NCBI GenBank assembly: GCA_030549495.1
Contig: JAUIRK010000927.1
Coordinates: 608,882-672,881 of the forward strand
Reading direction: 5' to 3'
DNA length: 64,000 nucleotides
Origin: Nectonema munidae
Taxonomy: Eukaryota; Nematomorpha; Nectonematoida; Nectonematidae
The translations under genes were made by a program, and so were the position numbers. The notes beneath the pieces were generated by a model. The model was not told the origin of the DNA and ran no database searches. It worked only from the letters and a program-made list of their open reading frames with translations. The first letter of the stretch is position 1, and every line of letters starts with the position of its first letter. Below are positions 389-56,032 of this stretch, piece after piece.

Positions 389-525
389 TTAACCCATTAA
401 GTACGATAGAAATCAGACGATATCTAAAAAACGCAGAGGGTTTATATTCAAAGTCATTGAAAAAAGCAGACGAAGATGAAATTACTTATGCTCCCAAATG
501 GGAGCATTGGGACTTAATGGGTTAA
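389..525 (+). repeat. TTAA-bounded MITE, type I
   Basis: Bounded by TTAA on both sides, starting TTAACCCATTAAG and ending TTAATGGGTTAA, so the ends are inverted repeats. The interior has the CAGACGATATC box, a decayed second box, and a third GCAGACGA box before a short inverted pair (ctcccaaatgggag). It matches copies at 1614, 8131 and 55871. No coding capacity. Confidence 0.8.
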
Positions 526-821
526 AATTTCCAAATATATAAATTGAAATTGATACAGATTGCTTTCAAATTTCTTACTTAATAATAACCACTTATAATT
601 TTCTGAATACGCCACTCTCTGCATATATACAAATCTTAATTCTAATGAAATCTACGCTCGACACTGATTTTGCATTCGAGAAAACATCCTCCTTTTTCAT
701 GAAATAAATAAGAAAGTTGACGCAAAGCTCATTCTTCTATAACTAGTTGACATTGTCATTAATGCTTTAAATTGTTTATAGACGGGCGTTTATTTCAACT
801 CTATTTGGGTACAAGCTTCCA

Positions 822-950
822 ATTACGACCAATATTCCTATTTTGGAACATAAGTAATTTCATCTTCGTCTGTTTTTTTTCAATGACTGAATATAAATCG
901 TCTGCGTTTTTTTAGATATCGTCTGCTTTGCTTGGCCTTAAATGGGTTAA
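822..950 (-). repeat. TTAA MITE type I, one end truncated
   Basis: Reverse-oriented copy of the same family. It retains TTACGACCAATATTCC at one end and TTAAATGGGTTAA at the other (TTAA at 947-950), with three TCGTCTG-type boxes between. The outermost TTAACCC at the left end is missing. Confidence 0.7.
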
Positions 951-1052
951 GCATGTTTGTTAGTAAGATTCTATCATACTTACAAAAACAAAACAATTTA
1001 AATTTTTCTACAAATAATTAAATTGAATAAAAATGATAATGTTTTTTTTTAG

Positions 1053-1157
1053 AATTTTCAAGAAATCAATGAAAAACTTGTCTGTGAAAATAAAAATTTT
1101 ACAACGAATTTTGTCCCTCTTAAAAATAAAGTTAAAGAATTGGATGATAATAAAAAA
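1053..1157 (+). CDS. Coiled-coil protein, internal exon (gene spans <1053-5532)
   Basis: A 105-base exon coding 35 residues, rich in Glu, Lys and Asn with leucine spacing typical of a coiled coil (it begins NFQEINEKLVCENKNF). A polypyrimidine run and AG at 1051-1052 precede it and GTAAGC follows at 1158. It is in phase 0 at both ends. The next three recognised exons are also in phase 0, which is the main reason for treating them as one gene. Upstream exons are not in the window. The family is not identified; a long structural, tethering or cytoskeletal coiled-coil protein is plausible from composition only. Confidence 0.5.
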
Positions 1158-1599
1158 GTAAGCATATCCATTTTTACCTTGAAATAACTTTTATTTAGAT
1201 ACTTCTGTGATATAAGTGCAGTTATTAATATCTACAACTCTATTTATTTTTTAATTTCACTTTTTTAGAACTCTAATTAACGTTTATTTTAAAAAATCTC
1301 AGGTGTGTATACTTTTAAAACGTTTATTAGAATGATAAATTAGTCCATAATAATAATAAATTATATAATAGTTTCGAGTTTACAACTTTGGTATCACCTA
1401 CTTACTATTCTATACTCACCTTGTTTGTTCAACCATTTTTATTCATTTCCTTCTCCTATACTCTTTTCTCACTGATTTTCGGTTTATTACATTTAGTATG
1501 TTCCTCAAAAACGATACTTGTAAACTCTTCACTTTCTTTTTATGTTGCCAAATCCATGTCTTGTTTATAAAATATTTTGTCTTTGAATTTGAAAAGTAA

Positions 1600-1808
1600 T
1601 CCTCTGCTTTCTTTTAACCCATTTAAGACCAAGCAAAGCAGACGATATCTAAAAAAACGCAGACAATTTATATTCAAAGTCATTGAAAAAAGCAGATGAA
1701 GATGAAATTACTTATGTTCCAAAATAGGAACATTGGTCTTAAATGGGTTAAAACGAAATTTTATATATTTAAAAGCAGATGATTAGAGCAGAGACCTCAA
1801 AAGGTTAA
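1600..1808 (+). repeat. TTAA MITE type II, split by a type I insertion
   Basis: The left remnant (cctctgcttt, 1600-1611) and right remnant (1752-1808, with aaaagcagatgattag and ending ..CTCAAAAGGTTAA) correspond to the two halves of a type II element. A complete type I copy sits between them at an internal TTAA. The far left end of the host element is degraded. Confidence 0.55.
1614..1751 (+). repeat. TTAA-bounded MITE, type I, complete
   Basis: A 138-base element with TTAA at both edges (1614-1617, 1748-1751) and terminal inverted repeats TTAACCCATTTAAGACCAA / TTGGTCTTAAATGGGTTAA. Three CAGA(C/T)GA boxes lie in the interior and TTCCAAAATAGGAA forms a subterminal palindrome. This is the best-preserved type I copy in the window. 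Confidence 0.85.
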
Positions 1809-2140
1809 AGAAATTAAATTCAATAAATTACAGTCAAAAGGTCAAAGAGCCCAGGGCATGAATATCCTGTTATAATACATTGTATGCACACCTGAGATAT
1901 TTTATATCAAATAACTTAATGGCATCTGCTTTTTCTCGGATAGAATCAGTTATTATGGATAAAATTTAATTTTTCATTACTAATTTTAGATTTTAGGTTT
2001 AACTTACACTTAAATAATGAATGAATAAATATCATAGACTTCATTTAGAGAACTTATGAAATTTACTTTATTTCAACTAATAGATTTCGATAGATTGATC
2101 CTCCTCAAATGAATATTTGAAGAAAAGAAATACAGAATTA

Positions 2141-2395
2141 CGTTGTTGTTGTTGTTGTTGTTGTTATTGACCAACAGATTACGCTGTCTCATTATAAGCG
2201 TAATTTGTCGGTCAACATTTTTTTTAAACTAAGTGAACACTTTTTCCCTTCAAAAATGGTCACAGGATTAATGTGTGCAGGTTTTGTTACTCTTTCACAG
2301 CAGCAGCGATTAGTAAGTCTAGTACCAGCCAACTTAGATGACAGCCATCGTATGGTACTGTTCACTCCATGAGTAGGCGCTTCCACTTATGGCTA
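2141..2395 (-). mobile_element. Retroposon 3' fragment with (AAC)n tail
   Basis: On the minus strand this segment reads through a frame containing the residues RCCCERVTK and ends in an (AAC)n tract at 2141-2165. The copy at 18815-19137 shares the cgctgctgctg..gaaag.gtaacaaaa core, the ..agcgtaatct..gg block and an AAC-rich tail. Dispersed copies sharing a 3' microsatellite tail suggest a non-LTR retrotransposon or SINE. The family is not identified. Confidence 0.5.
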
Positions 2396-2445
2396 TACAG
2401 AATTAGACCTTTTTCATCACTATAATTCTTTAAATATTTATTTAG

Positions 2446-2586
2446 CTTATTTTGGAAAAAAATAAGCTGTTGGAAGAAACTTGCAACTTATTGAAAAAGG
2501 AGTTATCTGATTTGATGGCAAAAGCAGAAGTTCAGAATGATAAGCTGCGATGCATTTGCTCCCAATGCATTCCTGGATTGCCGGAG
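2446..2586 (+). CDS. Coiled-coil protein, internal exon
   Basis: A 141-base exon (47 residues, phase 0 at both ends). The AG is at 2444-2445 and GTACAT follows at 2587. The product has heptad-like leucines (LILEKNKLLEETCNLLKKEL) followed by a short cysteine-containing stretch, CICSQCIPGLPE. It fits in frame between the exons at 1053 and 4664; a further small exon in the 2.1 kb intron to 4664 cannot be excluded. No catalytic motif is visible. Confidence 0.55.
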
Positions 2587-3610
2587 GTACATTTTGTTTT
2601 CTCTGAAACAGTGATCTCCAAAATAAGCCATCATATGGAGCTCTCTTTTGTTTTGTTTTGTTACTCTATCAAATGAGTAATCAAATCAATCAGTGCAAAT
2701 GACGTCCTATACTGCTTGCTTATTTCAGACCTTTCACTCAAAAAAAAAACTATTTTTAGCTTGAAACTAAATTTTCTATCGCGTTTACAAAAATTTGAAG
2801 CATAAGTCTGTCTTGAATATTTCCCATTTTAATTCTTCAATAGATATCTCCTTTTTGGAGTAGGTAAAAACCTCCCATGTGTTTGAAGAATACGCAAATT
2901 TCGATAAGTTTCCAATTTTAATAATCTTTCAAAGGCTTATTTTCTTTCAATATTACTATTCACGTCAAATTTAATAAAGCATATTTCTTCGAAAAACAGC
3001 CTGCTGCAAAAGCGCACTAAGAATAGGGATGTTCTAAAAAGAGCTGATGGTCTCAAAAGAACGCGGGGTAGAGATGTATCTTAAATAAAAAAAAACTGAA
3101 AAACAATGTTTGATCGTACTTTTTTGATTGATTCTCATCTATATTGATTTTTCTTTTAAATAATGTTTCCTGAATAGAAGATAGCTGAGCGATTCGATGC
3201 ATTAATTTTCAAAAATTTAAACAATTAATGAAGATTTTCTGGTAAGCAACCTTTAGCCTGCAAGATCTCAGTGTGCACTACAATATACGCTGCATTTTTG
3301 ATAGTAATTATTTGTCTAAAACCTTGGCAAAAAATTCAAAGTGTAAATAAACAACTATTTTTCATATTAAGAAACTGTCACCCATTAATATAGCAACTAA
3401 GAAGGGTAGATAAAAACACCAGATCCAAATCTGACTAATCTTTTTCCACTTAGTTTGTGAGATTCGGATATTTGTGCCCTTGTTGTGACATAACTAACTA
3501 TGATATTGCTAACATTGACTTCTCAGATAAATTCTTAACAAGTTGTCATGTTTTTGCAATGTTAACTTGATATTGTGGTAGCCCTTATTTATCACTTATC
3601 CTTTCCGTTG

Positions 3611-3736
3611 TTAACCGGTTATCGACCACAGTCAACATATTTCGACTTTACAAAAATATGAATTGTCTGCTTTTTAATACAAATCTTCTGCTTTACATTA
3701 GATACCGTTTTATTATTCTGGTCGATAACGGGTTAA
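3611..3736 (-). repeat. TTAA-bounded MITE, type III
   Basis: A 126-base element bounded by TTAA, with terminal inverted repeats TTAACCGGTTATCGACCA / TGGTCGATAACGGGTTAA (imperfect). The interior carries tctgcttttt and tctgctttac boxes in the orientation opposite to the copy at 39259. Confidence 0.8.
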
Positions 3737-4254
3737 TGAAGTTTGATGTCCGGAAACTTTTCAAAAACAAAAAAGGTTCTGTATTTATTTAAGAATATCC
3801 ACTCTATGACAACATGAATACACTTATCTATAATCTCTGCTAAAATGGAAATGAACAAATATGTTAATATAAAAAAGATTCGAAGACTGTATTCATTTAA
3901 AATTTAGATATATTTTTTCCGGCTTAAAAGCAACATTTTTACATAAAACCAGATTCTGGCATCTTGAAGTTATAGAAGTACGTATATAAGGAGTGTGATG
4001 CCGTCTGACAATATAAATAGCTTCTACTTTTTTGCATATATGAATCGTTTAATCTATTTTGTATTGTGAAATGTTAACTATCTCACTAACTAATTCTTTT
4101 GCGTTCAGTCATTGTGTGGGAAAATACTGCAGTTGAAAACGTTTGGAGAGCACTGCTTCACGATTAACCTTTCTTATTTTTATCAACATAAAAGAATTAA
4201 TATTTATTTTTAGCTTCCAAAAGAGGTAAAATAATATGATAATACAACTTTTAT

Positions 4255-4342
4255 ACTTTTCCTTTTCAAATTCTCTTTCTTGATCTGCATGCCATGCCAA
4301 CTGATCCTCTTTACTCATTTTTACTACTTTCATATCTTTTAC
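4255..4342 (-). other. Exon-like segment, unassigned
   Basis: On the minus strand, after a possible acceptor (..aaaatag), the frame reads VKD then MKVVKMSKEDQLAWHADQ and continues with EREFEKEKYK before turning into intron-like sequence. The charged, well-mixed composition is unlike the surrounding AT-rich noise. A clean GT donor is not evident (only AAAGTTGTA). It could be an exon of a nested gene, a retrocopy scrap or coincidence. I do not recognise the protein. Confidence 0.25.
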
Positions 4343-4398
4343 CTATTTTGTCGCTTGAAATCCTTTCTAAAAATCAAATCTATTTTCCTTGATTTAAA

Positions 4399-4532
4399 TA
4401 ACCCTTTGAGGTCCAAATAATGACACGCCAGTGTCCGACAAAACAAATATCGTGAGCTTTATATTATATAAAACGGATTGGAAAATATAAGCAGACGATT
4501 AGTTTTCAAAAACGTGGGCCTTGAAGGGTTAA
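4399..4532 (+). repeat. TTAA MITE type II
   Basis: Starts ATAACCCTTTGAGGTCCAA (first T of TTAA mutated) and ends GGGCCTTGAAGGGTTAA. The right half has the hallmark AAGCAGACGATTAG. It is related to copies at 5221 and 39134. Confidence 0.7.
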
Positions 4533-4663
4533 ATATGCTTCAACTAATTTTTTTAATGTCGGCGAAACTTCGTTTGTGATTTAATAGAAAGGCATTTACA
4601 AATCTTTAAAATTGCCTTTAAAGCTAAGTTCTAAATATTGTAGTTTCTTTTTTACTTGGATAG

Positions 4664-5110: not shown

Positions 5111-5220
5111 GTGAGTTCTTTTGTTTCAATTTTTCATTTATCTGAAAATTTTACACTCTGATTTCAACTAATCATATGAGTAATTTAATAGCTAACTAAA
5201 TGAATACCTAAACTACCAGT

Positions 5221-5352
5221 TTAACCCTTTGAGGACCAGTGTGACGACACTGGTCTACCAAGAAATGAAAACTGTCTGCTTTAAATATAAAAATGTCCAT
5301 TAAAAAGAAAGCAGACGATACGTCCTGATAATTATGCTCCCCAAAGGGCTAA
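5221..5352 (+). repeat. TTAA MITE type II
   Basis: Starts TTAACCCTTTGAGGACCAG and ends CCCCAAAGGGCTAA (terminal TTAA mutated to CTAA). An internal inverted pair, actgtctgcttt and aaagcagacgat, sits about 30 bases apart. It lies in the last intron of the coiled-coil gene. Confidence 0.75.
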
Positions 5353-5478
5353 TAAGAATTAAATAAATAAAGTAGCAGCTCTTAAATATATATATTGTTA
5401 CTATAACAAAAAACTATTATAATTTTCAACTTCTTTTTATTCCTAAAAAATCTGGAAAAATGTTTTTTTGCACTTTAG

Positions 5479-5768: not shown

Positions 5769-6152
5769 TTAACTCAGACGATATTTATTAAAAAGCAGAA
5801 GATACATATACAAAACTATTTGAAAAAGCAGACGAAGGTAAAATTGTTTATGTATTATTTACAGTGGCGGATCCAGAAATTTCTTATAGGGGAGCCGAAA
5901 TCTATTTAAATTTTTTGCAATTTTGCTAAAAGTCTTCAGAGAATACGACAGCTGTATTGTCTTTTAGAATTCGACTTGTCATATCGTTGATATAAACGTA
6001 ATCAACTACCAACAAGTATTGTTTTAGGAAAAAGCAAAATTAGTAAGGGTAATTTTCGAAGCCATTTTTCATAGTGGAGGCCTAGACCCATGAGGCCTCC
6101 CCCTTGGATCCGCCACTGATTATATATGATACACTGGTCACAAAAGCGTTAA
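5769..6152 (+). repeat. TTAA MITE (type III relative) with nested element
   Basis: TTAACTCAGACGATATT at the left and ..GGTCACAAAAGCGTTAA at the right. The interior has cagacgatatt, aaaagcagaagat and aaaagcagacga boxes. The same interior recurs at 8285-8410 without the insertion, so the 247-base CAGTGGCGG element at 5872 entered this copy later. Confidence 0.6.
5872..6118 (+). mobile_element. Non-autonomous element with CAGTGGCGGATCC ends
   Basis: Inverted termini CAGTGGCGGATCCA / TTGGATCCGCCACTG, flanked by attattta and attatata, an 8-base target duplication with one mismatch. Size 247 bases with no ORF. Ends starting CAG and an 8-base duplication fit hAT-type mobilisation. Related ends occur near 49329 and at 50079-50265. 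Confidence 0.7.
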
Positions 6153-6570: not shown

Positions 6571-6571
6571 C

Positions 6572-6953: not shown

Positions 6954-8130
6954 CTGTTAAATGAATGTGAATAAATATATTATCCGCACATACCTCAGAA
7001 TTTGCAACTTCACTACTTCTAAATGTTTTAACATCCAAAAGGCTAACGCCATTAATATGATGGCAAGCGTTATTGATTTTTTATAATATTCAGAAGGATT
7101 GCAAAAAAATGTGGCATCTCTATAACTACAAGTTTTCCTGCAAGCAGAAGCAACAGCTAGTGGGGTGACACATAAGATTTTCTACTTTCTATATTTCCCA
7201 TGTTATACCCAAATGTACTCGTCTGAAGCGCTGCTTGAATTAGAATCAGTAGGCCCATAATAATTTGAAATGTGGATTCCTTGACTTGGAATAACAGTTA
7301 TATTCACGTTTTCGATTGTGTTGAAGATCCAAAGAAGAAATGTACATTGTTCTAGATATTACCTTTGATCCAATAAAAAGGCTATTTCAATTTGTGAAAC
7401 TCGATTTTTGTAGGAACATAAACAGGAGGGCCCTTGAAAAAATATAATTTCTCTTTGACGAATGATGATCATGGCAGATAAATAATTAATTAATTCTAGA
7501 GTACAAAATCCGATGCATTTATTTCATTTACAATGAAAAGTTGTCCTTATTTAAAAATTTAAATTCGCTTTGGAACAAGGAATCTATTTCGTTGTAAACT
7601 GATTACAAACACAAATAAGATTAACACGAGTGATGTACTTTGTTTTCAGCCGTGAATTTCAGTAAAAACTAAATAAAATAAAAGTTTCCTGCTTCTTGAT
7701 ACACGATCAATCGAAATAGAGCACTTACAGGGGCATACGTCAAAAAGATTATCTATATTTGCAAAAAACTGTGTTCTTTTATCCATCCATCAGGCTGCGA
7801 GAAGTAGAAGGTAAGGTAAATTTTTTCAAGCTTTGATAGAGTTGTATTTTTCTACTTAAAATATTGTATACACTTCTTTACTTATATGCGGTAAGGATGA
7901 TTTTTCCCATAAAGAACAGACAGAATTAACAGTAGAAGTAAGATGATTTTTAATTCCTTTGGTATTTTGAATATTTTTAGGTAAAATAAATGTCTGTAAC
8001 AGTCTCGATAAGTTGGAAGCTTCAATTAAACAAAATTACATTTCATAAAAAAGTAATAAAATAAGATGTTTGTTTATTTCCATCAAATAAAGGGAGTGGC
8101 AAAGGGAAAGGAGGGGGCAAAAATAAACCT

Positions 8131-8267
8131 TTACCCATTTAAGGCCAAGCAAAGCAGACGATATCTAAAAAAACGCAGACGATTTATATTCAAAGTCATT
8201 GAAAAAAGCAGACGAAGTTGAAATTACTTATGTTCCAAAATAGGAACATTGGCCGTAAATGGGTTAA
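8131..8267 (+). repeat. TTAA MITE type I
   Basis: Nearly identical to the copy at 1614: starts TTACCCATTTAAGGCCAAG (one A lost from TTAA) and ends GGCCGTAAATGGGTTAA. It has three GCAGACGA boxes and the TTCCAAAATAGGAA palindrome. Confidence 0.8.
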
Positions 8268-8420
8268 ATCCTTTCGTTCATTACCAGAAAAATAAGACGA
8301 TATTATTAAAAAGCAGAAGATTCATATACAAATCTATTTGAAAAAGCAGACGAGGTAAAATTGTTTATGTATCATATAGTTTCAGCCCACAACAGACACA
8401 GGTCACAAAAGACGCGCCTG
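8264..8420 (+). repeat. TTAA-type repeat, type III relative, right end lost
   Basis: Begins on the TTAA shared with the preceding element. It contains aagacgatatt, aaaagcagaagatt and aaaagcagacga, then ggtcacaaaagacg, matching the copy at 5769-6152. The closing GTTAA is not present. Confidence 0.5.
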
Positions 8421-10599: not shown

Positions 10600-11298
10600 C
10601 CTTGCTTCTAAATAAATTTTAAAAAGTATCTAAATTAGTCCAAATACCTTTATTTCAACTTTTACGAAAATAAACTGAAATTTTGAAACTCCAAGAAATC
10701 TTTTTTTGAACAAATCAAAAAGAATACGATGTATTTTGACTTTTTTTTTTAATTATTTAGAATAAAAAATTACTTTTATTCATTCCTTTTATGTCAATCT
10801 TTACACATCTCGATATCGAATCGAATCTTTGTTTTAACAAAATTCAAAAAAGAGAAATTGATTTTTACATTATTTTTAAATCAGGATTTTGACTAAAATT
10901 TTTATCCCGCAATCCGGTTGAAGTCTCAAATCGGCATAATCCCGCTAAAATGTTAGATTTTAAAAATTCGTTACTTCTATGCTTGCAGCGAAGATTATAT
11001 CGCCCTTGACTCCTTAATCTAATTAGGCGAGAAGATTAATTTTATCAAAAGGAAGCTTTTTATCAATAAACCGTGAAATAAAAGAGTCTTTAAAGAATTT
11101 CTAAAGTTCAACAACAATTTGATTCATTCTAATAAAGGATAAAATACTTTCGTGCTGTCTTTCAAGTGAATAAAGACAAGGCTGATTATTAATTAACTTT
11201 TTTTAATCAAATTAATTAATGTCGTCTACTTTCCTTGGGATGAAACAGGTAATGTCAAATTTCCAAAAGTAAATACAGTATAAGGAATATTTGTGCCA
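10600..11298. other. Upstream flank of the small heat-shock gene
   Basis: Presumed promoter side of the minus-strand gene. AT-rich, with no clear TATA box plus heat-shock-element cluster by eye and no convincing coding segment. Confidence 0.3.
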
Positions 11299-11575
11299 TT
11301 AACGACCAGGATAATCAGAGGATATCTAATAATGTAAAGCATAAAAAGCACTAATAAACACAGACGATATAATTTTTGTAATTAAAGATCAGGATAATCA
11401 GACGATATCAAATGTAAAGCAGAAGATTTGTATTAAAAAGCACTAATAAACACAGACGATATATTTTTTTAATCCAGGATCAGGATAATCAGACGATATC
11501 AAATGTAAATCAGAAGATTTGTAGCATAAAGATAAACAGAAGATATTATTTTTGTAAAGTCGACAATAGTCAAAT
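11299..11575 (+). repeat. Tandemly expanded type III TTAA repeat
   Basis: Three successive copies (about 84-92 bases each) of the type III interior, starting near 11299, 11380 and 11471. Each has (g/t)a(c)caggataatcaga(c/g)gatatc, then aaatgtaaa(g/t)cagaagattt, then cactaataaacacagacgata. The left edge retains TTAACGACCAGG, as in other type III ends. The right edge decays at a sequence like the usual terminus (aaagtcgacaatagtcaa). Confidence 0.75.
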
Positions 11576-15486: not shown

Positions 15487-15921
15487 GGTGCCTGGTCAAA
15501 ACGGCGGAAATCAAAATGGCCAAAAACGAAAACCGATAGAGAATAGATTTTGACCATTTTGATTTTGGTTGTTTTGATTTTTCACTGTTTTGGTTTTGGC
15601 CGTTTTAGTTTTGGCCATTTTTATTTTAGCTGTTTTGGTTTTTGGCCATTTTGGTTTTGGTCGTTTTAGTTTTGGCCGTTTCGATTTTTAGCCGTTTTGG
15701 TTTTGCCCATTTTTATTTTAGTTGTTTTAGTTTCGGTTTTTAGCCGTTTTGGTTTTGGCAATTTTTATTTTAGCTGTTTTAGTTTTAGCCGTTTCGGTTT
15801 TTAGCCGTTTTGGTTTTGGTCATTTTTATTTTAGTTTTTGGCCGTTTTAGTTTTGGCCGTTTTGGTTTTTGGCCGTTTTGGTTTTGGCCGTTTTGGTGTT
15901 TGGCCTTTTTGACCAGGAACC
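15487..15921. mobile_element. 435-base foldback element with minisatellite core
   Basis: Inverted ends GGTGCCTGGTCAAAACGGC / ..TTTTTGACCAGGAACC (outer GG(T)(G/T)CCTGGTCAAAA) are flanked by perfect 8-base duplications GTTAGAAG at 15479-15486 and 15922-15929. The interior (about 15550-15905) is a tandem array of short units of the type GGCCGTTTTGGTTTT. Transposon ends plus target duplication show it moved as a unit. The frame over its right end is a by-product of the repeat. Confidence 0.85.
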
Positions 15922-20471: not shown

Positions 20472-22255
20472 TTTATGAAACTGAAAACTCTCTCTCAAGC
20501 TTTGGATTTTGTTGATGATTTTGAAAGTAATCAAGAAATTAATATGTGTATTCTTTCACCAGATGAAAGCGTGATTTCAGACGAAGAGTTTTTTGATGAA
20601 AAAAATTTTTTATCTTCTGAACTTCCTAAAGATATTTGTGGCGAGCTTGAGGTTACCACTGGTGAAGAAAATGATTTTTCAGATGGAGAAGATAAAAAAA
20701 AATTTTAATGGAAAAAATCAAAACAGTTCGATGTAAGTTTGAGAGATGAAACTCCATCAAATTTACTTTCACTTTTTCTTGATTTGGACTTCTCCTCAAG
20801 AACTTTTCCATTTATTTTTACCATTTGAATATTTTTCTCAACTCGCACATATGACAAACACATATGCCTCCCAAAAAAATGAAATTGTAAACTACTAAGT
20901 TGAAGATCTCATGCAGTTTATTGGAATAATTTTATCGAGTGGTTACAATATTTTGCCTAAAGAAGGCGATTACTGGTGTCAGGATGTTCATTTGGTTAAC
21001 TTCCTATTTCCTAAAGTCATGTCAAGAAGTTTTTTTCGTTCTATAAAACGCTACTTTCATATAAGTGATAGCATGACATTGATCAAAGTGTGAAGTTTGC
21101 CAAAGTCCAAGATATTTATAACATACTAAATGAAAAAATGCTGCAATTTCGGTTTTTTCACAAATGTTTATCAATTGACAAGAGTATGGTTCCTTACTTT
21201 GGGAAACACTCATGCAAACAATTCAACAAGGAAAAACCTATTAGGTTTGGTTATAAAATTTTCTTCATTTGTTCATCTGATGGATACCCCTACCAAGCGA
21301 AGTTGTATGCTGGAAAAACCGATAACCATACTCCTTTGAGTTTCAGAATTGTAAAAGAATTTACAGATTTGATCACAAACAAATACTCTCACGAAGTTTA
21401 CTTTGAAAATTTTTTTTTCTTCTCATAAACTCTTTGAAACACCGTCTTATGGAGGTATAAAGTGCTCAGGAACCATATGTGAGAATCGCACAAATAAATG
21501 CCCTCTCAAGTCTGTTAAAGAAACTAAAAAAAGAAAAAAGAGGTCATTTTGATTACAGGTGTGATGGTAAAGTTTACATAGCGCGATGGAATGATAACGC
21601 TTCTGTTACTATAGCTTCTAACTTTTGTAATCATGAACCTCTGACACAATTAAAAAGGTATTGCAAAAAAACAAAAATTATATCAATGTTGAGTGTCCAA
21701 ACATAAAAAAGTACATATTACTTTTTAAACATTGGTATGGGTGGGATAGATGTCTTAGATCGCTTATTATCCTCATATCGTCCTCAAATAAAAGGAAAAA
21801 AATGGTGGTGGCAATTAGCAATAAATGCTTTCAATTTAGCAATTGTTGCAGCTTGGAAGCTGCATTCTCATATAAACGATACGTCAACACATTTAGAGTT
21901 CAGAAGGAAAATCGTTCTACATCTTTTGGAATCTAAGCAAAAGAAAATTTGTAAACCTGGGCCGGTTACCCACTTGATGTCCAAATGGAGAAAAGTAAAT
22001 GGACATATTATTATTTCTTGCTCACAAGGTCGATGTATACTCTGCAAAAAAATACAACAAAGAAGTGTAAAAGTTGCGATAAAAGACTCCATCAAAAGTG
22101 TTTTGGATTATATCACAAAGAATAACAAACTTTTAACTTTTCTATCTTTCATACGCTATATGTATATTGTAGAAATGGAAAACTTGAAAAAAGAAAAATT
22201 AGTGCACAACCCGGCGATGTTCCAAAAATGCAACATTTTGAAAAAAGACCTGTGA
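20472..22255 (+). pseudogene. piggyBac-type transposase, degraded (PGBD2/3-like)
   Basis: Recognisable piggyBac (DDE_Tnp_1_7) transposase in several frames. The acidic N-terminus holds SPDESVISDEEFFDE and ELPKDICGELEV. Then come MQFIGIILSSGYNILPKEGD (20911) and SIDKSMVPYFGKHSCKQFNK with the first catalytic Asp (near 21175). YSHEVYFENFFFF is at the second Asp position, which is replaced by Glu. GGIDVLDRLLSSYRP with the third Asp (near 21740) precedes a tryptophan-rich segment. Frameshifts and stops occur near 20708, 20890, 21090, 21428 and 21706. The residual acidic and WWWQ segments and the C-terminal cysteines (CSQGRCILCK) fit the family, but the copy cannot encode an active enzyme. Flanking TIRs were not found. 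Confidence 0.85.
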
Positions 22256-26083: not shown

Positions 26084-28278
26084 TTAACCCTAGGAAGCCC
26101 AAAAATTTTGCCTACCTAGAAAGCCCATACCGGTCAATTGACCGGTTTAAATTTGTTTACAGTTTTTTTTAAATCTAGAAACTATACAGCATTTAAAAAT
26201 ACTGATTTATTTTTTTTGAACACGCTGTAAAATATATTACATAAAATATAAAAATTAAAATATTATTTTAATTTTTTTTACTAAAATATATAATTTTTAA
26301 ACTAAAAATATTTTTAAACTTTAAAATAAAATGGCGTGGCAAATGATTAATATTTCAAAAAATAAAAGTTTGCTTTTAAATGATTCCGATTCAATAAGTG
26401 ACAGTTTTCAATCCGAAAATTCTTTTTTTTCTTCAAACAATATTTCAAGTTATAGTGAAACAAGTTCTCAAAGTGAAACATCTTTAGAAACAGAACATAT
26501 TCGCTTATTTGAAACATACTTTGAAAGTAAAGATGGAACGAAATGGAGTGAAAATCCTTGTAGAACAACAAAAAGTTCAAGTAAAAATATTGTTCATCAA
26601 AGAGGTGGTCCAACAAAATTTATTTCTTCTAGAACTCAAAGCATCAAAGATGTTTTTGAAGAACTATTTGGAATACATAATATAAATATAATTGTGCAAA
26701 AAACAATAGAAAAAGCACAATGACATAAATTTTAGTACTGATGAAGTGGAATTGAAGGCTTTTTTTGGCTTGTGTATTTTGAGAGGCGTTTTGAAGGGGA
26801 AAAACGAACCTTTATATACATTTTGGGAGGAAAAATATGGGAAGAAAATCTTTAGAGAGACTCTTTCAAAAAATAAGTTCAAAAGTATTCTTAGGTATAT
26901 AAGATTTGATGATAGCAGTACGAGGATATCTAGAAAGCAATCCGACAAATTTGCTCCCATGCGTGATTTAGGGAAATCAGTTATGAAAAACTGCGAAAAA
27001 AGCTACAAACCATATTTTAACGTTACGATTGACGAGCAATCATTTCCTTGTAAGAGTAAATCTTCATTTATGCAATATATGCCATCTAAGCCGGGCAAAT
27101 TTGGTATCAAGTTTTGGATGATTTGCGATACAGAATCTTATTACATTCTAAACTCCTATCCATATGTGGGAAAAGAGGAAAGAATCGGTTTGCTATCAGA
27201 AAGTATCGTCATGAATCTGATTGAACCGTATAAAAATCAAGGATTAAATATTACCGTTGATAATTTCTTTACAAATCTGAATTTAGCACAAAAACTTCTA
27301 CGACAATAAACTACTTTAGTAGGTACTATGCGGTCCAATAAAAAAGAAATTCCTACTGAAATTAAATTGAACAAAAGTAATCACCTTTATGATAAAAAAT
27401 ATGCTTTTACCCTTGATGATAACATATCTCTATTATGTTATAAAGCTAAAAAAAAATAAAGTGGTGTACATCCTATCATCCATGCATGATAAAATCGAAA
27501 TTTCATCATCTAAAAGAAAGAAACCAAACACAATTTTATTTTATAATTCCACAAAAGGAGGAGTTGACACAGCAGACGAAATGTTGAAAACATATTCAAC
27601 TAAATGTGCCACAAAAAGGTGGCGTTTATCAGTATTTTTTAACTTGATTGACATTATCTGCCTAAATTCTTTTATAATATGCACAAAGCTTGAAATATTT
27701 AGGCAAGCAGAAGAAAGTTTCTTATTGAAATAGGAGAAACTCTATGTGAAGATAATATAAATCGAAGGAAAACTAATTCTCCTAATTTACTTATCGCCAG
27801 ATCTTCAACAAATAATATTGAAAAAGAAACACGAAGAACAACATGTAGAGTATGTATGAAAAATAAAACAAAAGTAAGTTGCTATGGATGTTCGAAATAC
27901 ATTTGTGGTACTTGTTCAGTAAAAGTTTGTGAAAAGTGCATTTTGAAAAAATAAATTCAAATTGAAAATTTTATTTTTTAGTTTTATAAATTTGTTTTTT
28001 AATAAATAAAAATGATAATAATAATTTAATTAACAAATAGAGATTTTTAAGTTTACATAATTCTATATTATGCAGACCGGTCTGGGCTTTCTAGATATAT
28101 TTTGAATCAGTGGTAAGACTTTTGCCAACCATGACAAAATTTTTACTGTATACCGTAGGGAACAATGTTAAATTTAGACTTGTGAATTATCCACTGAAAA
28201 TAACGGGAATTTTTTTTGCAATGAAGTTTTTAAATGAATCTAGCGGTCAATTAACCGGTATGGGCTTCCTAGGGTTAA
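26084..28278 (+). mobile_element. piggyBac element with both termini, 2.2 kb
   Basis: TTAA at 26084-26087 and 28275-28278 flank inverted ends CCCTAGGAAGCCCA. Subterminal motifs containing ctagaaagccca, taccggtcaattgaccgg and the mirrored rightward gaccggtctgggctttctag occur at both ends. Length, TTAA target and CCC termini are standard for piggyBac. The internal transposase is broken (separate entry). Confidence 0.92.
26331..27953 (+). pseudogene. piggyBac transposase, broken
   Basis: Starts MAWQMINISKNKSLLL with a Ser/acidic N-terminus. DGTKWSENPC and a frameshift near 26718 follow, then VELKAFFGLCILRGVLKGKN. VTIDEQSFPCKSKSSFMQYM (first Asp, near 27030) and NITVDNFFTNLNLAQKLL (second Asp, near 27257) lie in one frame. 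A stop at 27307 follows, where the family usually has Lys before TTLVGTMRSNKKEIP. Another shift near 27457 leads to KVVYILSSMHDK and GGVDTADEMLKTYS (third Asp, near 27560). The C-terminus (from about 27840) is cysteine-rich: TCRVCMKNKTKVSCYGCSKY then ICGTCSVKVCEKC, the family's usual zinc-binding tail. All three catalytic Asp positions survive although the frame does not. Confidence 0.9.
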
Positions 28279-30661: not shown

Positions 30662-31510
30662 ATGCGGAAAGAAGTAGAAGAAGCTAAAGACAGGAAGAAG
30701 GATGAGATCAAGACCATTCTGAACTTTTATGACAAGACCGCAGACGCGTCGCTCAAAGGTCCATATGCTGCCGCCCATTACTCCTCCCTCTACCACCAGT
30801 ACTTCCTTCCGCAAGTCAAGGGCTTTGTGGAGGCGGAGCGCAAATTCTTCCCAATCTGCATCCCCAAAGATGACTTTGATTCCTGTCTAGAGCACACGTT
30901 CTTGGAAGGCATCAAGATCGCCTGCTTCAATGTGGGTGGCGAATTTCGTCTGTGCCTCTCTCAAATCTTAAACACGATCCTTAATGACTTTTCCCTCTCT
31001 CAAATTTACAAGAAGTGCGATGAATTGTACATCTACTTCTCACGCTCCAACAACTACCAGTTGTTGCAGCTGAAAAAGTTTGGCATTCTCCCACACAGTG
31101 TTCCAACATGTGTTCTGATCACGAAAACGGATTCAGAGCGCTTGTGCAACGCCCTCCTCCGACCCTCCTCTCCTCCTGCCCCCTCTGCCAACGCTTTTTC
31201 CGGGAAAAGGGCGGACTTCAAAGTTTTCCATACGTGCTTCGACAGATGCTACGGCGGCGTTTTCTTGCACGCCTACACTAGTCCGAAAGCAAAATGCGTG
31301 CAGTGTTTGGCGTGTAGGAACACCTTTTGTCCGTGTGATTTCGTTGCTCACTTCCACAAAAGCTCAAAAAAGTACCTGAAGCATTGGGGCTTTGATCGCA
31401 AGCATTGGCGCAAGTACCTCTTTCTGGATAAAGGCGTAGAATCGGGGGAAATGCTGGAACTCTTTGAACAATTCAAAAATAAATACAAAGCTTTCAAAGA
31501 TGAAGAAACA
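30662..31510 (+). CDS. Snoo: Ski/Sno family transcriptional corepressor, exon with both signature domains (gene spans 30662-59934)
   Basis: Ski/Sno proteins bind SMADs in the nucleus and repress TGF-beta/activin target genes. The exon codes 283 residues. Residues about 62-166 form the Ski/Sno/Dac domain: FPICIPKDDFDSCLEHTFLE, ACFNVGGEFRLCLSQILN, CDELYIYFSR, FGILPHSVPTCVLITKTDSE, RLCNALL. Residues about 185-256 form the SMAD4-binding SAND-like domain with its zinc ligands: VFHTCFDRC, KCVQCLACRNTFCPCDFVAH, FHKSSKKYLKHWGFDRKHWR. LITKTDSERLCNALL favours Ski/Sno over the related SKOR/Fussel group. The first ATG is preceded immediately by an in-frame TGA, which fixes the start if no upstream exon is spliced in. 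I end the exon at ACA|GTAACT (phase 0); read through, the frame would stop at 31573. Confidence 0.9.
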
Positions 31511-31630
31511 GTAACTCTTTACCTCATTATTTTTAATACTAATCTCAGAAAATGTATCTTTTTTATTAATTGATTTATTTTAGAGGGAAAAATTATTTTT
31601 TAATATTTATTTTTGTTAGATGAAAAAATA

Positions 31631-32940: not shown

Positions 32941-33055
32941 GCCCCCAAAAAGTATCGGCTTGACCATGATCTGCTTGCGTTTTCAATGAAATTTTATATG
33001 TGCAAAGCAGACTATTTTCATTTATTGGGTGTCCCACTAGTCCTAAAAAGGGCGT
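32941..33055 (-). repeat. TTAA-type MITE, type II, reversed and decayed
   Basis: On the minus strand it reads cctttttaggactagtggga.., then tagtctgctttgcacatata and cattgaaaacgcaagcagat, the type II interior, ending catggtcaagcc. Termini have lost TTAA. It lies back to back with the copy beginning at 33064. Confidence 0.5.
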
Positions 33056-33063
33056 GCTCAAAG

Positions 33064-33399
33064 GGTTACGGTCTGTGTCCCAAGAAATGAAAATTATCTG
33101 CCTTATATATATATATTCCATTTTTAGTTCTAAATTGTCTTTTTTTAGTTTGAAATTATCTTTTTTTCAATTAAAAATTGTCTTTTTTCAATTTTATTTG
33201 GAAATTTAAGAAAGAGCATTTAGAATTTAAAAAAGACATTTTAGAACTTAAAAAAGACAATTTTTAATAAATTACAATTGAAAAAAGATAATTTAGAACT
33301 AAAAAAGATCATTTAAGGTAAAAATGGTATATATAAAAGTGCATTGAAAAAGAAGGCAGCGGTGATTAATCATAAAAATTGTGGTCCTCAAAGCGTTAA
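33064..33399 (+). repeat. TTAA MITE type II split by a palindromic insertion
   Basis: Left part ggttacggtctgtgtcccaa..ttatctgcctta and right part aaagtgcattgaaaaagaag..gtggtcctcaaagcgttaa (TTAA 33396-33399) are the halves of a type II copy. They are separated by about 215 bases. Confidence 0.6.
33116..33330. mobile_element. Palindromic foldback inserted in a type II MITE
   Basis: Long inverted repeat beginning ccatttttagttctaaattg and ending caatttaga-type sequence through gtaaaaatgg, with many aaaaaagacaattt repeats on both arms. Same family as 14358-14494. The junctions fall in a TATATATA stretch of the host, so TA-rich target choice is likely. Confidence 0.65.
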
Positions 33400-36737: not shown

Positions 36738-37255
36738 TTAACCCGTTATCGACCATAATAATCAGACGATATCTAATGTCCATATATGTCAAAGACAATT
36801 AAATATGTACCCCAAAACACCCCATAACATACTAAAAGATCACCCTTAATTCTAAAACACGAATCGAACTAGCAACAACTATGAAAACAATGTCTAAATA
36901 TGTTATAAAACAATAAAATATGTAGCAAATACATTACGCAACCCCAAAATAAGGATATGTTTTGAAATCTTTTGCGTGTTTTGAGGTGCGTAATTTATTT
37001 GCTATATATATATATATATAGTTAATTTCATAGTAATTAGTAATTTATTTTCTTAGTTTTAAAACATTTAACGACATATTTTAGTATTTCAAAAGGTTTT
37101 GCAATGTTTTGACCCATTTTTCTTTGTTTGGGGGTACGCTTGCTATATTTATTTGTTTTTGACATATGTGGACATTGTTTTCATAGTTTTTAAGTTTTAT
37201 GAGTGTTTTGGAATGATAGATCACATTTTGGTATGTTTTGGAGTGTTTAGTATTC
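36738..37255. repeat. Foldback sequence replacing most of a type III MITE
   Basis: TTAACCCGTTATCGACCATA..cagacgatatctaatg (36738-36779) is the left third of a type III MITE. It switches at 36780 to a long imperfect inverted repeat. The arms include gtccatatatgtcaaagaca / tttttgacatatgtggac and atgaaaacaatgtc / gacattgttttcat, with an inner pair attacgca / tgcgtaat. The missing right part of the MITE was not found. Confidence 0.5.
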
Positions 37256-39133: not shown

Positions 39134-39262
39134 ATAACCCTTTCAGGACCGGCGGGATACTGGTGTCCCAAAAATTGAAATCGTCTGCTTTAGATATATA
39201 AAATTGCATTGAAAAATAAAGCAGACGATTAGTCTTAAAAATTCTGGTCCTCAAAGGGTTAA
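39134..39262 (+). repeat. TTAA MITE type II
   Basis: Starts ATAACCCTTTCAGGACCGG and ends TGGTCCTCAAAGGGTTAA. The inner inverted pair atcgtctgcttta / aaagcagacgatta is well preserved. Its right TTAA (39259-39262) is also the left edge of the next element. Confidence 0.85.
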
Positions 39263-39385
39263 CCCGTTAACGACAAAAATAATCAGACGATATCTAGTGT
39301 AAAGCAGACGATTTGTATTAAAAAACATTTATAAAAGCAGACGATCGTATTTTCATAAAGTCGACTCCGGTCGTTAATCGGTTAA
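39259..39385 (+). repeat. TTAA MITE type III, complete
   Basis: Starts TTAACCCGTTAACGAC and ends CGGTCGTTAATCGGTTAA (TTAA 39382-39385). It has three direct boxes (cagacgatatc, cagacgatttg, cagacgatcg) spaced about 20 and 33 bases apart. Confidence 0.85.
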
Positions 39386-48449: not shown

Positions 48450-49850
<1,401 letters not shown>

Positions 49851-51038: not shown

Positions 51039-51174
51039 CAATACTTTGAGGATCCTTGTGACAGGTGTACCAAGCATAAATTCCATTAAATTCTGCATAA
51101 ATTACATTATATTCCGTAGAAAAAGAAATGAAACTATCAGTCTTCTTATTTCCGATGCGCAAAGGGTTTAAAGC
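51039..51174 (+). repeat. TTAA MITE type II, strongly decayed
   Basis: tactttgaggatccttgtga..caggtgtacca at the left and gatgcgcaaagggttta at the right match type II termini. The internal boxes are mutated (ctatcagtcttctta). Terminal TTAA is lost. Confidence 0.4.
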
Positions 51175-53880
51175 TAAAACCTTGGTCTAGGCGCAGATTA
51201 TTATGGGTTTATGTACATATGAACATCATGTTCAATGAAGAAAAGGATACAAAATGGAAAATAGATAGAAGTAGTCGAGCATCGTAGTGTGCACCTTTGG
51301 TAGTTAGATAGCTTCTAAGTTTGTTGGTTAAGATGTTTCTAAGTGCTATATTTACATTTTTGGAAAATTTAAATCATCCAAATTTACTATTTTCAGTAAT
51401 TCTCTTTTAAAATTTATTTGTAGATTGATATATAATAATTAATTAGTAATATTGTAGTACGGATCAATTTTTTCATCTTTTTACTGATAACTTTCAACAA
51501 TTCTATTTCGTCAGTTTAAGTAAATTTTATTATGCTGGTATAATGCACACACACATATATATTATTATATAGAAGACTAGCTGGTCCCGTGGTCGTTTCT
51601 CGCTGGTATAAAATTGACCAATTCAATGAGAGATCATCATACAGCGCAAAAATCCACTGAAAAGATACAACTATGCTAAAAACTAATAAAGAATATACAT
51701 ATATAGCATACATACATACATGTATGTACTACACACATTTTGAAGTTTTTTGACAATTGAAATAATTTTTTGTGTATAATCAATACAAAAAATTTTTTTA
51801 GCTTGAAACCAACAAAACACAAGACAAGAATTTTGGAGAGTGAAGAAGATGAGTAATTCCACATATACTTTTTCTTTATCTGCTCTCGTATACGACGTAT
51901 ATATGTTTATTTATATTTCTGGACGATGATATACTATGATATGGATAAAATAATGATTGATACACAAGTGAATTCATGGCATAACTTTAAAGGGAATTGA
52001 GCTTATACAATTGCACAAATCTTACGCATATTGATTACATTTGCTTCTGCTCTCTTTTTAGTCTTGAAAAGAGTGCACTTCTCATTAGCTAGATTTATAC
52101 TCTGAAATGATCAAAGAGAAAGGGTCGTACGCGCTTTTTGCAAAGTCAGAAATTCTTGTCCAGATGCTTCTTGGTGTTACGCCCTTGAAACTTTTAAAAT
52201 GAAAATGTGTGCTTTTGAACCTGCTAAAATATATTTTTATTTTTTAGCTGTCGTTATCGCATCCAAGGTAAGAATACTTTTCCATAGGTGCAGACCATCT
52301 GGATCGCGGACAAGGTAAAAAAATTAAACGCGGATGAATATTAACTCAGTTTTATATAACGTATAATTCTTATTTATTTATTATGCATAGAGCATTTTTA
52401 GTAATCAAAGTTAATTTTCTCTGCAAGGACAATATCTCTATCTTTGCTTTCCACTGTAAACCAGTTTAAACATACACGATATTTATTTGTAGAAATTCTT
52501 TATTTCATTCTAAATAATTTGGACTTCTTCGAGCTGTTGTTCAGCATATGCCAATTTGGCATAACAAATTTTTAATATATTAATTTGTTTTTTTAAATAT
52601 GTAAATTCATGAAATACAAAAATTTTTCATTTTCCAATTTTTTTTCTAAAAATTCTCTACCTTTTGAATGTTCTATTTTATCATTGAAGTTAAATGACAA
52701 TGATTATATCACTCATGCCAATATTGATTAAGTCATTTCACATAAGAATTTAATTATAAATAGATCCCAAACAGCGCAGCTTAAACACCAAAATAGTCAA
52801 CTTTTTACCAAGTTCTGCTAGCACAAAAGTCTGTAGATCCTGAAATAATTTCGTTAAGAAAGATCCTATTGAATACTTTGTTAACCGTGTTGTGGAATTA
52901 TTCAAAAAATGATCTCTGTGTAGTAGTTTTAGGGCATCATGGTATCGGAATGAATTGTAGCGAATGAGAAAGATTGGTCAAGATATTTGAACCTCACCTT
53001 TTGCACTTTTTGGAAAATTGATCTTTTGACCTGACTTCAAGAGACCGGTTAAAATTATTATTGATGGGTTTGGAGTTCCGCCTCTTCTTCATAAATTCTA
53101 TAAATATCATATTTATCATATGGTATCGATTGACATAACAGCTAGAGTGATCTAATGCAGAAAAGCAATATCAAGAATCAATAAATATCAAGCTTTGAAA
53201 CTACTTAAAATTTTTTCTTTTTATAACTGCATGTATATAATTTTTTTGTGTAGCAAAATGAAATAGAACTTTTAGAAATAAATTCACAAATTCCAAGAAA
53301 ACAAAATTTAATTTTTAAGGAGCCAAATTTATAGAGCAAAATGAGAATTTTTTCTTCAACTAAACTTAAGTCATAATAGTGGCATCCTCTTTCAACATAT
53401 TGTTTTCTGAAGTATTTGAATGATTTATGTTTTTTTTGTCTTTTTTTAATTAATATTTGTGAAATATTTTAACTGAACTTGATGTAATTGAAAAAGATCT
53501 CATGTCAAAATGTCTTATCAGAACTTGATAAGATGTCTTATTAGAACTTGATAAAATGAAAAAGATCTTATGTCAAAATGTCTTATCAGAATTTTTTTCT
53601 CCTTTTTTTTTAAATGTCTTTTTTAAACTCTTCATTTTAAAGCTTTTGTTAGCATGTTATATTATTCTTTATCGCGGTGCGACAATAACCTATTATGTTT
53701 GCTCCGCCATGTTATATCTTAAACTGGTTTTTTATTAAATAAATTAATAAATGCGCGTAGTGAAGTGTCACGGCTCCAACTACCATCATGCCGATTGGCA
53801 AAAAAAATTCAAAATCTGTTTTCATCGAGAAGGCACAATTGCGCCGCTTGTATCGAACTATGAGAAAGTAGGCTTACTGC

Positions 53881-53945
53881 GGGATCGAACCCAACACCTT
53901 GAGTTATTGAAACCCAGTACCTAACCAAACTTACTCTAGCACTCT
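53881..53945 (-). repeat. tRNA-like sequence (SINE head or tRNA pseudogene)
   Basis: The minus strand carries ggttaggtactgggtttcaa and, after a short gap, gttgggttcgatccc: a recognisable T-arm B box (GGTTCGATCCC) with an A-box-like TTAGGTACTGG upstream. Stems are incomplete. Higher GC than the flanks. Confidence 0.4.
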
Positions 53946-55425
53946 TAAAATTGGGTTGTTATGATTTTTAAAGAAAAGCTCATAATTCTCTTTAATTTTA
54001 TGTGCGTGATTACACCTTCTTCGAAAAGCGCCTTGTGTATACTACTTAAAATTTGATGAAATACACACTTAAATTTTGACATTTGTCCATTGCATGCTTT
54101 TCAATTTGAAAGATTATCAATTTTTTATATTTAGATTCTCGCTTTCCTTGATTTGTGGAGAAGGAAAAATCAAAAGATGATAGATATATGGGAGTGATGA
54201 TGAAGTCCAAACTAGTCTTTAAAGTTAAAATGGTCTTTTTTGTTATGAGTGCTTTTATTTCCAAGTGTTTTGTACATCGTGTACAAAAACACGCACACAC
54301 ACATAAGTTTATATATGTATGTATTCATATTATACGTATTTTTTTTTACAAAAAATATTTAAGTTTTATGACAACATATCAAATTTGTTTTTTTATGCTA
54401 TAAGCAAAACGCTACAACTTTCAAAGGAATCGCGGTATTCCTTAAAATCCCATGGATAGATTAAAATAAAATTCTTCATGATTTATTGCCAAAAAAGTTC
54501 TCCCTTCCTAAAAGCAAATCTTCCATTCACTTCTGATTCCATATTTAAAAGTTTGCATAAAAACGCGTTCATCTTTTTTTCAAACATTTTGAAGAATAGA
54601 AGTAAGTCCAAAAATTTGGAGATGTTTATGCGTTGAACAAAATATTCGAACATAACTCATCCGCCTTGTTATAATTATTATTATCCTTTATTGCAAGATT
54701 TCTGTTAGTTAATTTTTACTCCTGTGCAAATCAGAACGAGTATATCAACCTTATCAGTCCTTCGGCCATAAAAAATATTATACATGATTTTTACTTTAAG
54801 CTCGTCCATTTTTATTTGTTTATTAAAGTTAAAGATATATAATTCCTTATGATTCATTTCTTCTCGCTAGATGATACTAGCATCCACAATCCTCAGTTAA
54901 CTTTTTTTTATAAAAAAAATATTGCGTAGTGACTCTTTTGCTCTATTGAATAATTAAATTCAATAGAAAAAAAAGTTGAAACTTAAGGGTGCAGCCTCAA
55001 AACTTTTAATAACTTTACTTTGCTTTTTATAAACTTTTATTTTAATTTTGTATTAAAAAAATGTCAACAACTTTATTCATCATAGCATCAAAAGCAATAA
55101 AAGTCATTATTTGCTTCTTTTTTTGGTAACAAGTGTCATTCAATCTCATAAATATGGCAAATCAGTGAACAAATAAATTATTTTTTGAAATCAAAATTTT
55201 TAACCAAATAAAATTAAAATGATATACCTTATAAAAAAATGACATTAAAGAAAAAGAAGTACTAACTTAAAGTAAAAATGGTTTGTATGTTATACAGATA
55301 TAACAGAATTATAGAATCAAAATAAATGGAAAAGTTCATTAAAAGGCACATTTTTTCAAACACTTTTCTTCTTTACAAAGGCGAATCTAAAGAAAACTAA
55401 AAATTTTGACAGAAGCATAATATAG

Positions 55426-55536
55426 AAGAAGTATGTCAACAAAAAGTCTATTGAAAAGGAAGCTGAGGATTTGTTTTCAGCCTTGTTCTCAGAAGATCGA
55501 GTTAATACTTGGAATAACGTTCGCAAAGTTTATAAG
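55426..55536 (+). CDS. Snoo: Ski/Sno corepressor, coiled-coil exon (inferred)
   Basis: Phase-0 exon of 37 codons after ataatatag, beginning KKYVNKKSIEKEAEDLFSAL and ending NNVRKVYK, with donor AAG|GTAATT. An in-frame TAG lies just upstream, so the acceptor sets the start. The charged composition continues the heptad pattern of the exon ending at 46309 (..LTFL|KKYVNKKSIEKEAED). This resembles the LEFLR.AKKEKLREA.E stretch of the Ski/Sno coiled coil. Linkage across a 9 kb intron is inferred from phase and pattern. Confidence 0.5.
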
Positions 55537-55870
55537 GTAATTTTGGTTTTTAGTGAATCACTCAAAATGTCCTTTTTCTAATATATATAATATGTCTAGC
55601 GTTAAAATGTTAGTAGCAAAGGAGCATTTAGAAGGCTATTCCCCTCTTTTTGAGATTTAAGTATTTGGGTGTATGAGTGTCTAATGTCAATGTGTATTTG
55701 TATGTATGTCTAGATGTTTTTTGTGTCAGACTTGTACTAATACCAATGGGTAGGGAAGTTTGTGTTAAGAATGTCATGTACGATTGCGCTAAAACTAAAT
55801 TGGTTGAGCACTTGTCAATCAATTATTATGCAAATTGGAAAAAATTTAAATAGTCTAAATCAGCGCTAGA

Positions 55871-56032
55871 TTAACCCATTTACGACCAATGTTTCTATTT
55901 TGGAACATAAGTAATTTCATCTTCGTCTTCTTTTTTCAATGACTTTGAATATAAATCGTCTGCGTTTTTTTAGATATCGTCTGCGTTTTTTTTTTAGATT
56001 TCGTCTGCTTTGCTTGGTCTTAAATGGGTTAA
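55871..56032 (-). repeat. TTAA MITE type I with internal duplication
   Basis: TTAACCCATTTACGACCAAT .. TTGGTCTTAAATGGGTTAA with TTAA at both edges. Reverse orientation to 1614. The cgtctgcgttttttt..agat unit is duplicated in tandem, making it 162 bases instead of about 138. Confidence 0.85.

Follow-up and report, generated by a model that had tools for sequence, protein, structure and literature searches.

How miniature inverted-repeat transposable elements (MITEs) come to number in the thousands has long been asked. A close precedent for the elements described here, and by analogy the same kind of thing, is provided by the CMITEs of the coral Acropora, elements of ~100 bp with TTAA targets and CC[C/T]T ends, in which several families with different terminal inverted repeats (TIRs) have one interior that is better conserved between families than the TIRs, whole elements form tandem arrays, and one family is linked to an autonomous piggyBac (PMC2872659). 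The role of that conserved interior was left open by the coral study. Here we analyse short elements in a 64,000-nt window of the Nectonema munidae genome (the window being the whole stretch of DNA studied, G000:C623:608882-672881; genome-wide counts refer to the 211.6-Mb assembly), all of which carry copies of a AAAGCAGACGAT box. These box carriers are piggyBac-superfamily MITEs, short, non-coding and TTAA-bounded with CCC ends, and they form at least five families. Besides occurring in another animal, they differ from the CMITEs, whose interior we compare by its description only, in having a fixed-spacing box array beside one TIR, a family-specific palindrome at the other end and one family with inverted boxes. 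The shared interior is thereby resolved into a short motif of fixed spacing, apart from the TIR and palindrome that plausibly match a particular transposase, and this separation makes the question of the role of the box directly testable.

Three further systems serve for comparison. T. ni piggyBac likewise has TTAA targets, CCC ends and unlike ends, and a dimer of its cysteine-rich domain (CRD) binds a palindromic repeat inside the TIR, at bp 17-33 of the end (PMC7351741); in T. ni, however, one 19-bp repeat is found at both ends, placed at differing distances, whereas the second end here has boxes unlike the palindrome. In piggyBat of Myotis lucifugus, as here, an array of repeated sites occupies one end while the other has few recognisable motifs, and the inner sites of this transposase-site array affect activity (PMC11707139); its repeat consists of a core motif plus palindrome and belongs to one transposase, whereas here the array is common to families with different palindromes. 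Finally, MER6 with the V-SINE conserved domain illustrates a conserved internal domain in otherwise different non-autonomous elements, although its carriers are Tc1/Mariner elements and a short interspersed nuclear element (PMC6887750), while those described here are all of piggyBac type.

The box is a motif belonging to these elements. With up to two mismatches it is found 55 times in the window, against a shuffle mean of 5.6, and none of 100 shuffles reaches 55; genome-wide, the exact box has 3661 matches and the reversed pattern 31. In a sample not chosen for the box (223,827 bases, comprising the window and loci L039-L078, the latter made up of 30 piggyBac loci and ten stretches taken at round positions), 34 boxes have at most one mismatch, and 33 of them fall within matches to the five families, compared with one of seven for the reversed pattern. 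The 34th, at window 1772, falls within a type II copy that is split by the type I copy at 1614-1751. The viral contigs searched gave no match, and a search of open-licence papers for the letters of the motif brought up titles unrelated to transposons.

An initial annotation of the window had distinguished three terminal types. Types I, II and III do have the termini it gave them, but the families number five, as the copy at 389-525 belongs to family V (TIRs TTAACCCATTAAGTACCA and TTAACCCATTAAGTCCCA at its two ends) and those at 5771-6152 and 8277-8378 to family IV (TIR TTAACCCTTTCGTGACCA). Searches with fixed patterns and at most three mismatches, for which the reversed controls gave no matches in any family, yield lower bounds of at least 2603 copies for I, 1361 for III, 870 for V, 522 for IV (at least 534 with an interior pattern instead) and 112 for II. 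Majority consensi, built from 24 of 30 (I), 13 of 20 (II) and 14 of 20 (III) fetched copies, measure 138, 130 and 128 bp, respectively; family IV and a long form of III measure 138 bp, and V measures 137-138 bp. Near-full copies of 121-141 bp are too short to encode a transposase. The TIRs are 18 bp long, imperfect in III and V, and follow a common pattern of TTAACCC, six variable bases and GACCA (TACCA/TCCCA in family V), with CCC ends in all five consensi except at the right end of III, which reads CCG. Outside boxes and TIRs, and with matches under 60 columns left out, copies diverge from their consensus by ~3% in I and ~10% in II and III; because of this difference, I and II/III would probably have spread at different times, and the type I copy nested inside II at 1614-1751 agrees with II being the older of the two at that site.

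Kolobok elements also target TTAA, and their ends start differently. An origin of these MITEs in such another TTAA-targeting superfamily (Kolobok/T2, for example), to which the shared target lends itself, is highly improbable given the CCC termini, a palindrome at the piggyBac CRD position and a type I end common to piggyBac transposons; termini of the Kolobok/T2 type were not encountered in the families, whose ends start with CCC. The piggyBac affiliation proposed at the outset is supported by the same end features together with TTAA duplication at an empty site. The latter was seen for type I only: when the flanks of a type I insertion in locus L052 are joined at one TTAA, the sequence is 99.2% identical over 124 bp to L050, L054 and L138, which are uninterrupted relatives of the L052 sequence. 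Type I inserted with TTAA duplication, and this particular insertion is probably recent. Of the 85 near-full copies that remain once overlapping loci (L016/L017 and L029/L030) are dropped, 65 have TTAA at both edges, as presumed for the elements in general, and 20 do not. Since the search pattern fixed one edge for I, II, III and V, the informative edges are those not fixed, which are TTAA in 32 of 34 (I), 15 of 17 (III), 13 of 16 (II) and 7 of 8 (V) cases; the sample for family IV, in which three copies come from a tandem repeat, has TTAA at 9 of 20 edges.

The internal architecture stood as first described for I, II and III, with three direct boxes in I and III and an inverted pair in II. 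Counted from the left TTAA, the consensi of I, III and IV have boxes that begin at 22, 43 and 76. In V, most fetched copies lack one base of the A run that precedes box 2, so that boxes 2 and 3 lie one base earlier. Family II carries the exact 12-mer twice, at 48 (minus) and 86 (plus). What did not stand is the idea that the elements are otherwise unrelated, as a gap-free alignment of I, III and IV over positions 22-87 shows 45 of 66 columns to be identical in all three. Judged by alignment, I, III, IV and V have homologous interiors, which form one module that is best preserved in the box core. Between I, III and IV, the columns of the core CAGACGA are identical at 20 of 21 positions versus 25 of 45 others (Fisher p=0.0008), and those of the 12-mer at 30 of 36 versus 15 of 30 (p=0.004). 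The interior is also more conserved between these families than the variable part of the TIR (45/66 for positions 22-87 versus 2/6 for positions 8-13), TIR positions 1-7 and 14-18 being identical at 12 of 12. The most economical account of these alignments would be that I, III, IV and V share a single ancestor that already bore the boxes, and that their TIRs and palindromes were swapped or evolved to suit different transposases. The suggestion of a common ancestor with reshuffled ends, offered initially as an alternative to a shared binding site, therefore fits these four families; each of the two ideas fits part of the data, binding being what we infer.

The opposite end has a different design. 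Just inside the right TIR lie palindromes that differ by family, namely ATGTTCC-N6-GGAACAT in I, GTCGACATATGTCGAC in the long form of III, GTATCATATATGATAC in IV and, close to that of I, ATGTTCCCAAATGGGAGCAT in V; in family II, GGGATACTGGTGTCCC lies inside the left TIR. They start 18 or 19 bases from the element end (TTAA counted) and span positions ~19-38 in the five consensi. By analogy with T. ni piggyBac, they sit where a CRD dimer would bind, and the position fits in all five. Shuffled sequence reaches the palindrome score in 6 of 500 cases for I, none for the long form of III and 2 for IV, and the palindrome, when three mismatches are allowed, occurs in all 30 fetched copies of I, all ten of IV and 13 of 20 of II. 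By eye, a palindrome inside one TIR is also apparent in the autonomous piggyBacs L055 and L057 and in the piggyBac element at window 26084. A joint change of both palindrome arms between I and V was considered and rejected, as 8 of 10 fetched V copies keep one mismatch between the two arms.

The two ends are thus unlike: one is family-specific and resembles a standard piggyBac end, and the other consists of a direct box array that four families share. We envision that the MITEs would move into TTAA sites by a cut-and-paste mechanism, using transposases provided in trans. The 18-bp TIR and right-end palindrome of each family would be read by its own transposase, plausibly in the manner of T. 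ni piggyBac, with the core domain contacting the TIR and a dimer of the C-terminal CRD contacting the palindrome. At the left end of I, III, IV and V, where the three direct boxes (core CAGACGA) start ~21 and 33 bp apart, the array would most likely help to assemble the transposition complex, and its reader may be either a domain shared by related transposases, acting as an inner dimer, or an accessory host protein. Because the array stayed while TIR and palindrome changed, this reader is probably common to the families, and the array may have been kept because it is read in transposition. We give this reading, in which the box array of these piggyBac MITE families is a subterminal binding array that aids transposition, about an even chance of being correct. 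Were one reader to serve several families, a single factor could control several transposon families at once.

A narrower version, in which the array serves as a dock for some protein that is not the cognate transposase, be it a host factor or a domain that transposases share across lineages, seems rather unlikely. If true, families with different piggyBac transposases would exploit one accessory protein, and the box-bearing end would be a portable amplification module combined with several TIR/palindrome sets.

Several observations weigh against a transposition-aiding array. Some concern how the conservation was assessed: the core CAGACGA was picked after viewing the alignment, and the between-family test compares three related consensi. 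With a core chosen earlier, GCAGACGA, and only I versus III, the figures are 22/24 versus 29/42 (p=0.03), and for the 12-mer 30/36 versus 21/30 (p=0.16). When the core mask is moved by one base, 19 of its 21 columns are still identical, indicating conserved blocks broader than the box; at shifts of +4 to +6 the count falls to 13 and at -6 to 12, so that the peak lies at the box but is broad. Others concern variation within families, where mismatch rates of core and between-box columns were compared in copies spanning the tested columns. The core is no better kept than its surroundings in family I (2.3% versus 1.8%, 38 copies) and is worse kept in V (4.9% versus 2.3%, 13 copies; bootstrap interval -4.5 to -0.7%), while family IV gives 0 versus 0.6% (12 copies) in columns largely fixed by the search pattern. 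The palindromes, too, are weak in V (reached by 28 of 500 shuffles) and II (59 of 500), and that of III is present in only 7 of 20 fetched copies, the rest mostly being without about half of it. Because of this count for III and the within-family result for V, we rate a role for the box in these elements as only near even.

Family III points the other way, with 4.3% mismatches in the core versus 8.9% between boxes (27 copies; p=0.037 by column permutation; the difference has a bootstrap interval of 2.8 to 6.3%), which weakly supports constraint on the box within families. An earlier form of the within-family statistic, which took the variable right end rather than the between-box columns as its yardstick, is superseded along with its values (III, p=0.0024, non-CpG p=0.00016; I, p=0.19, non-CpG p=0.019; II not significant). 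Dead copies decay regardless of function, so the within-family rates are compatible with a role of the box in source elements. The question first posed, whether the box is better conserved than its flanks, is accordingly answered positively between families and unevenly within them, and the support for constraint comes from the between-family comparison and from family II. For the latter, kinship of the box flanks with those of I, III and IV is not demonstrable (one of 36 tests at no more than 25 of 1000 shuffles, the chance level), and the notion that II represents rearranged boxes 2 and 3 of the other families is unsupported for the same reason.

These data bear on the possibility that the boxes have no role, the array having happened to be in one ancestral MITE whose descendants gained other TIRs and palindromes, with the box as inherited interior. 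We regard this as a tenable account, though somewhat short of probable. It draws on the homology of the whole 22-87 region in I, III and IV, on the absence of better box conservation within I and V, and on tandem expansions with 25-, 59- and 91-bp units, which demonstrate that the sequence can multiply for reasons other than transposition. It is harder to reconcile with 20/21 identity of the core versus 25/45 elsewhere between families, with the same 12-mer occurring twice in family II in flanks of no demonstrable kinship to the others, and with three repeats kept within one element despite unlike spacers.

The remaining difficulties for a transposition-aiding array arose in the search for an autonomous partner. 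A genome-wide survey listed 117 piggyBac transposase matches (116 scored of 6799 first-look candidates), of which 30 were read with ~1.5-kb flanks and 10 with partial flanks; no box with at most one mismatch lies in the piggyBacs' own ends in these 40 of the 117 listed, a negative limited by the recognition of both ends in only about six loci. Nor do the ends of II, III and IV match any of the eight piggyBac ends tested. The exception among MITE ends is the right end of type I, which inside the TIR matches the piggyBacs L064, L051 and L068 (in each case 0 of 500 shuffles) but not the remaining five ends; for the other seven MITE ends (the box ends and those of II, III and IV), comparison with the eight piggyBac ends gave no clear match, the lowest value being 19 of 500 shuffles. 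The transposases of L051 and L064 are 97.5% identical, those of L068 and L051 44%, and a search with the L051 transposase returned at least 86 matches (79 scored of 5213 candidates), partly the earlier loci. As for the autonomous piggyBac with the same termini that had been looked for, the type I right end has matches in L064, L051 and L068, but no box-bearing autonomous element was met in 40 of the 117 matches listed. Lone sites with two mismatches do occur at some piggyBac loci, including AAAGCAGACATT in six members of one family. L052 was dismissed as a box-bearing autonomous element, its boxes belonging to the type I MITE inserted in it. As a side observation, piggyBac transposases abound in this genome, with at least 117 matches; the 30 loci that were read represent seven or more groups, and several copies are domain-identical with open frames.

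Alternatively, the array could be the ordinary end of a single autonomous piggyBac lineage whose transposase reads the box and cross-mobilises all families, with no separate factor involved. One-end subterminal arrays are known in piggyBat (PMC11707139), the non-box end of type I already matches one piggyBac group, and with 40 of 117 listed hits examined the parent could have escaped. We nevertheless consider this quite improbable: the autonomous piggyBacs nearest to type I (L064/L051 and L068) are without a box at either end read, and the palindromes vary by family whereas the box does not.

Box-bearing sequence also multiplies in place. Among 26 rows matching a type I junction pattern, 23 are head to tail with the TTAA shared by neighbours and three join two left ends, one site being counted on both strands; at C559:1721983-1722691, six type I junctions follow in succession at steps of 134-135 bp. 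Smaller box-bearing pieces form tandem units of 25 bp (L003), 59 bp (L104) and 91 bp (window 11287-11565). L003 (G000:C1:122629-123015) is an element of family III in which the box unit has multiplied ~15-20x to form an internal 25-bp tandem array, and L104 (G000:C32:99711-99871) has the left part of III in tandem with a 59-bp step, its units beginning TTAACCCG. Family IV copies recur every ~8-9 kb near contig ends (100 of 534 places listed), with identical flanks in C5, C121 and C80; the sites are G000:C121:4897-49119, C80:3825-21707, C5:364196-388421, C27:5883-35226, C452:4432-12861 and C457:13306-29098. This spacing is that of a tandem repeat that contains a MITE. Ribosomal DNA is not supported as its identity, since the five 5.8S matches lie on other contigs, C659 and C227 (39 of 6950 candidates scored), those on C659 being ~10.7 kb apart. 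Such arrays, in L003, at window 11287-11565 and in the family IV repeat, are what might suggest a host regulatory or chromatin motif, similar to a CENP-B box, carried for a host purpose; with no box outside the elements in the unselected sample and nothing else to suggest host use, we think this scarcely credible.

In the window itself, about 15 copies had been reported initially, and this is confirmed, with ~17-18 copies or pieces counted here. The elements are as follows, percentages being identity to the family consensus.

389..525, plus strand: family V MITE of 137 bp, TTAA at both edges, 97%; the left TIR reads TACGA.
819..950, minus strand: family I MITE with eroded right part, TTAA only at 947-950, 95% to consensus 1-133.
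1590..1808, plus strand: family II MITE split by the I copy 1614-1751, which is nested at a TTAA; left limit uncertain, right end AAAAGGTTAA; the flanks joined at one TTAA match II copies, at best 84% over 63 bp.
1614..1751, plus strand: family I MITE, full length (138 bp), perfect 18-bp TIRs, TTAA at both edges, 98%.
3611..3736, minus strand: family III MITE, TTAA at both edges, 86% to the long-form consensus.
4398..4532, plus strand: family II MITE, left edge AATAACCC, 79% to consensus 30-130.
5221..5352, plus strand: family II MITE, right edge CTAA, 78% to consensus 1-130.
5771..6152, plus strand: family IV MITE, left TIR missing, 96% to consensus 22-112 and 91% to 105-138.
8130..8267, plus strand: family I MITE, left edge TTTA, 97% to consensus 1-138.
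8277..8378, plus strand: family IV MITE with eroded ends, 94% to consensus 9-112.
11287..11565, plus strand: tandem array of ~91-bp units of the family III box region (Tandem Repeats Finder period 91), 76-90% to III.
26084..28278, plus strand: piggyBac from a different family, with ends TTAACCCTAGGAAGCCCA and palindrome CCGGTCAATTGACCGG; stops disrupt its coding region, and it has no array of boxes.
32970..33399: three family II pieces, at 32970-33029 (minus), 33075-33122 (plus) and 33329-33399 (plus), 80-83%.
36738..36779, plus strand: left 42 bp of a family III MITE, 98% to consensus 1-42.
39135..39262, plus strand: family II MITE, right TTAA shared with the III element at 39259..39385, 97% to consensus 2-130.
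39259..39385, plus strand: family III MITE, 86.7% to consensus 1-128.
55871..56032, minus strand: family I MITE of 162 bp with the box-1 segment duplicated, TTAA at both edges, 97% to consensus 22-138 and 100% to 1-32.

The family IV copy at 5771-6152 is split at ~5862-6118 by foreign DNA that opens with CAGTGGCGGATCCAG, probably another transposon insertion. The piggyBac at 26084-28278 does have TTAACCCTAGG at both ends, as originally noted; as a partner of the MITEs it was rejected, the one end tested inside the TIR resembling none of eight MITE ends, and its sole box-like site (at most two mismatches), at window 27569, is a lone one inside the coding part. Elsewhere in the window, broken piggyBac transposase remnants lie at 21090-22255 and 57576-58515, and a piece of a DDE_1 transposase at 61819-62193. 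A minisatellite at 15546-15912 consists of 23 copies of GATTTTGGCCGTTTT units. Lastly, an open frame at 30662-31570 contains Ski/Sno Dachshund and c-SKI SMAD4-binding domains, which mark the host as an animal, with at least 88 relatives listed, the best of them 50-53% identical.

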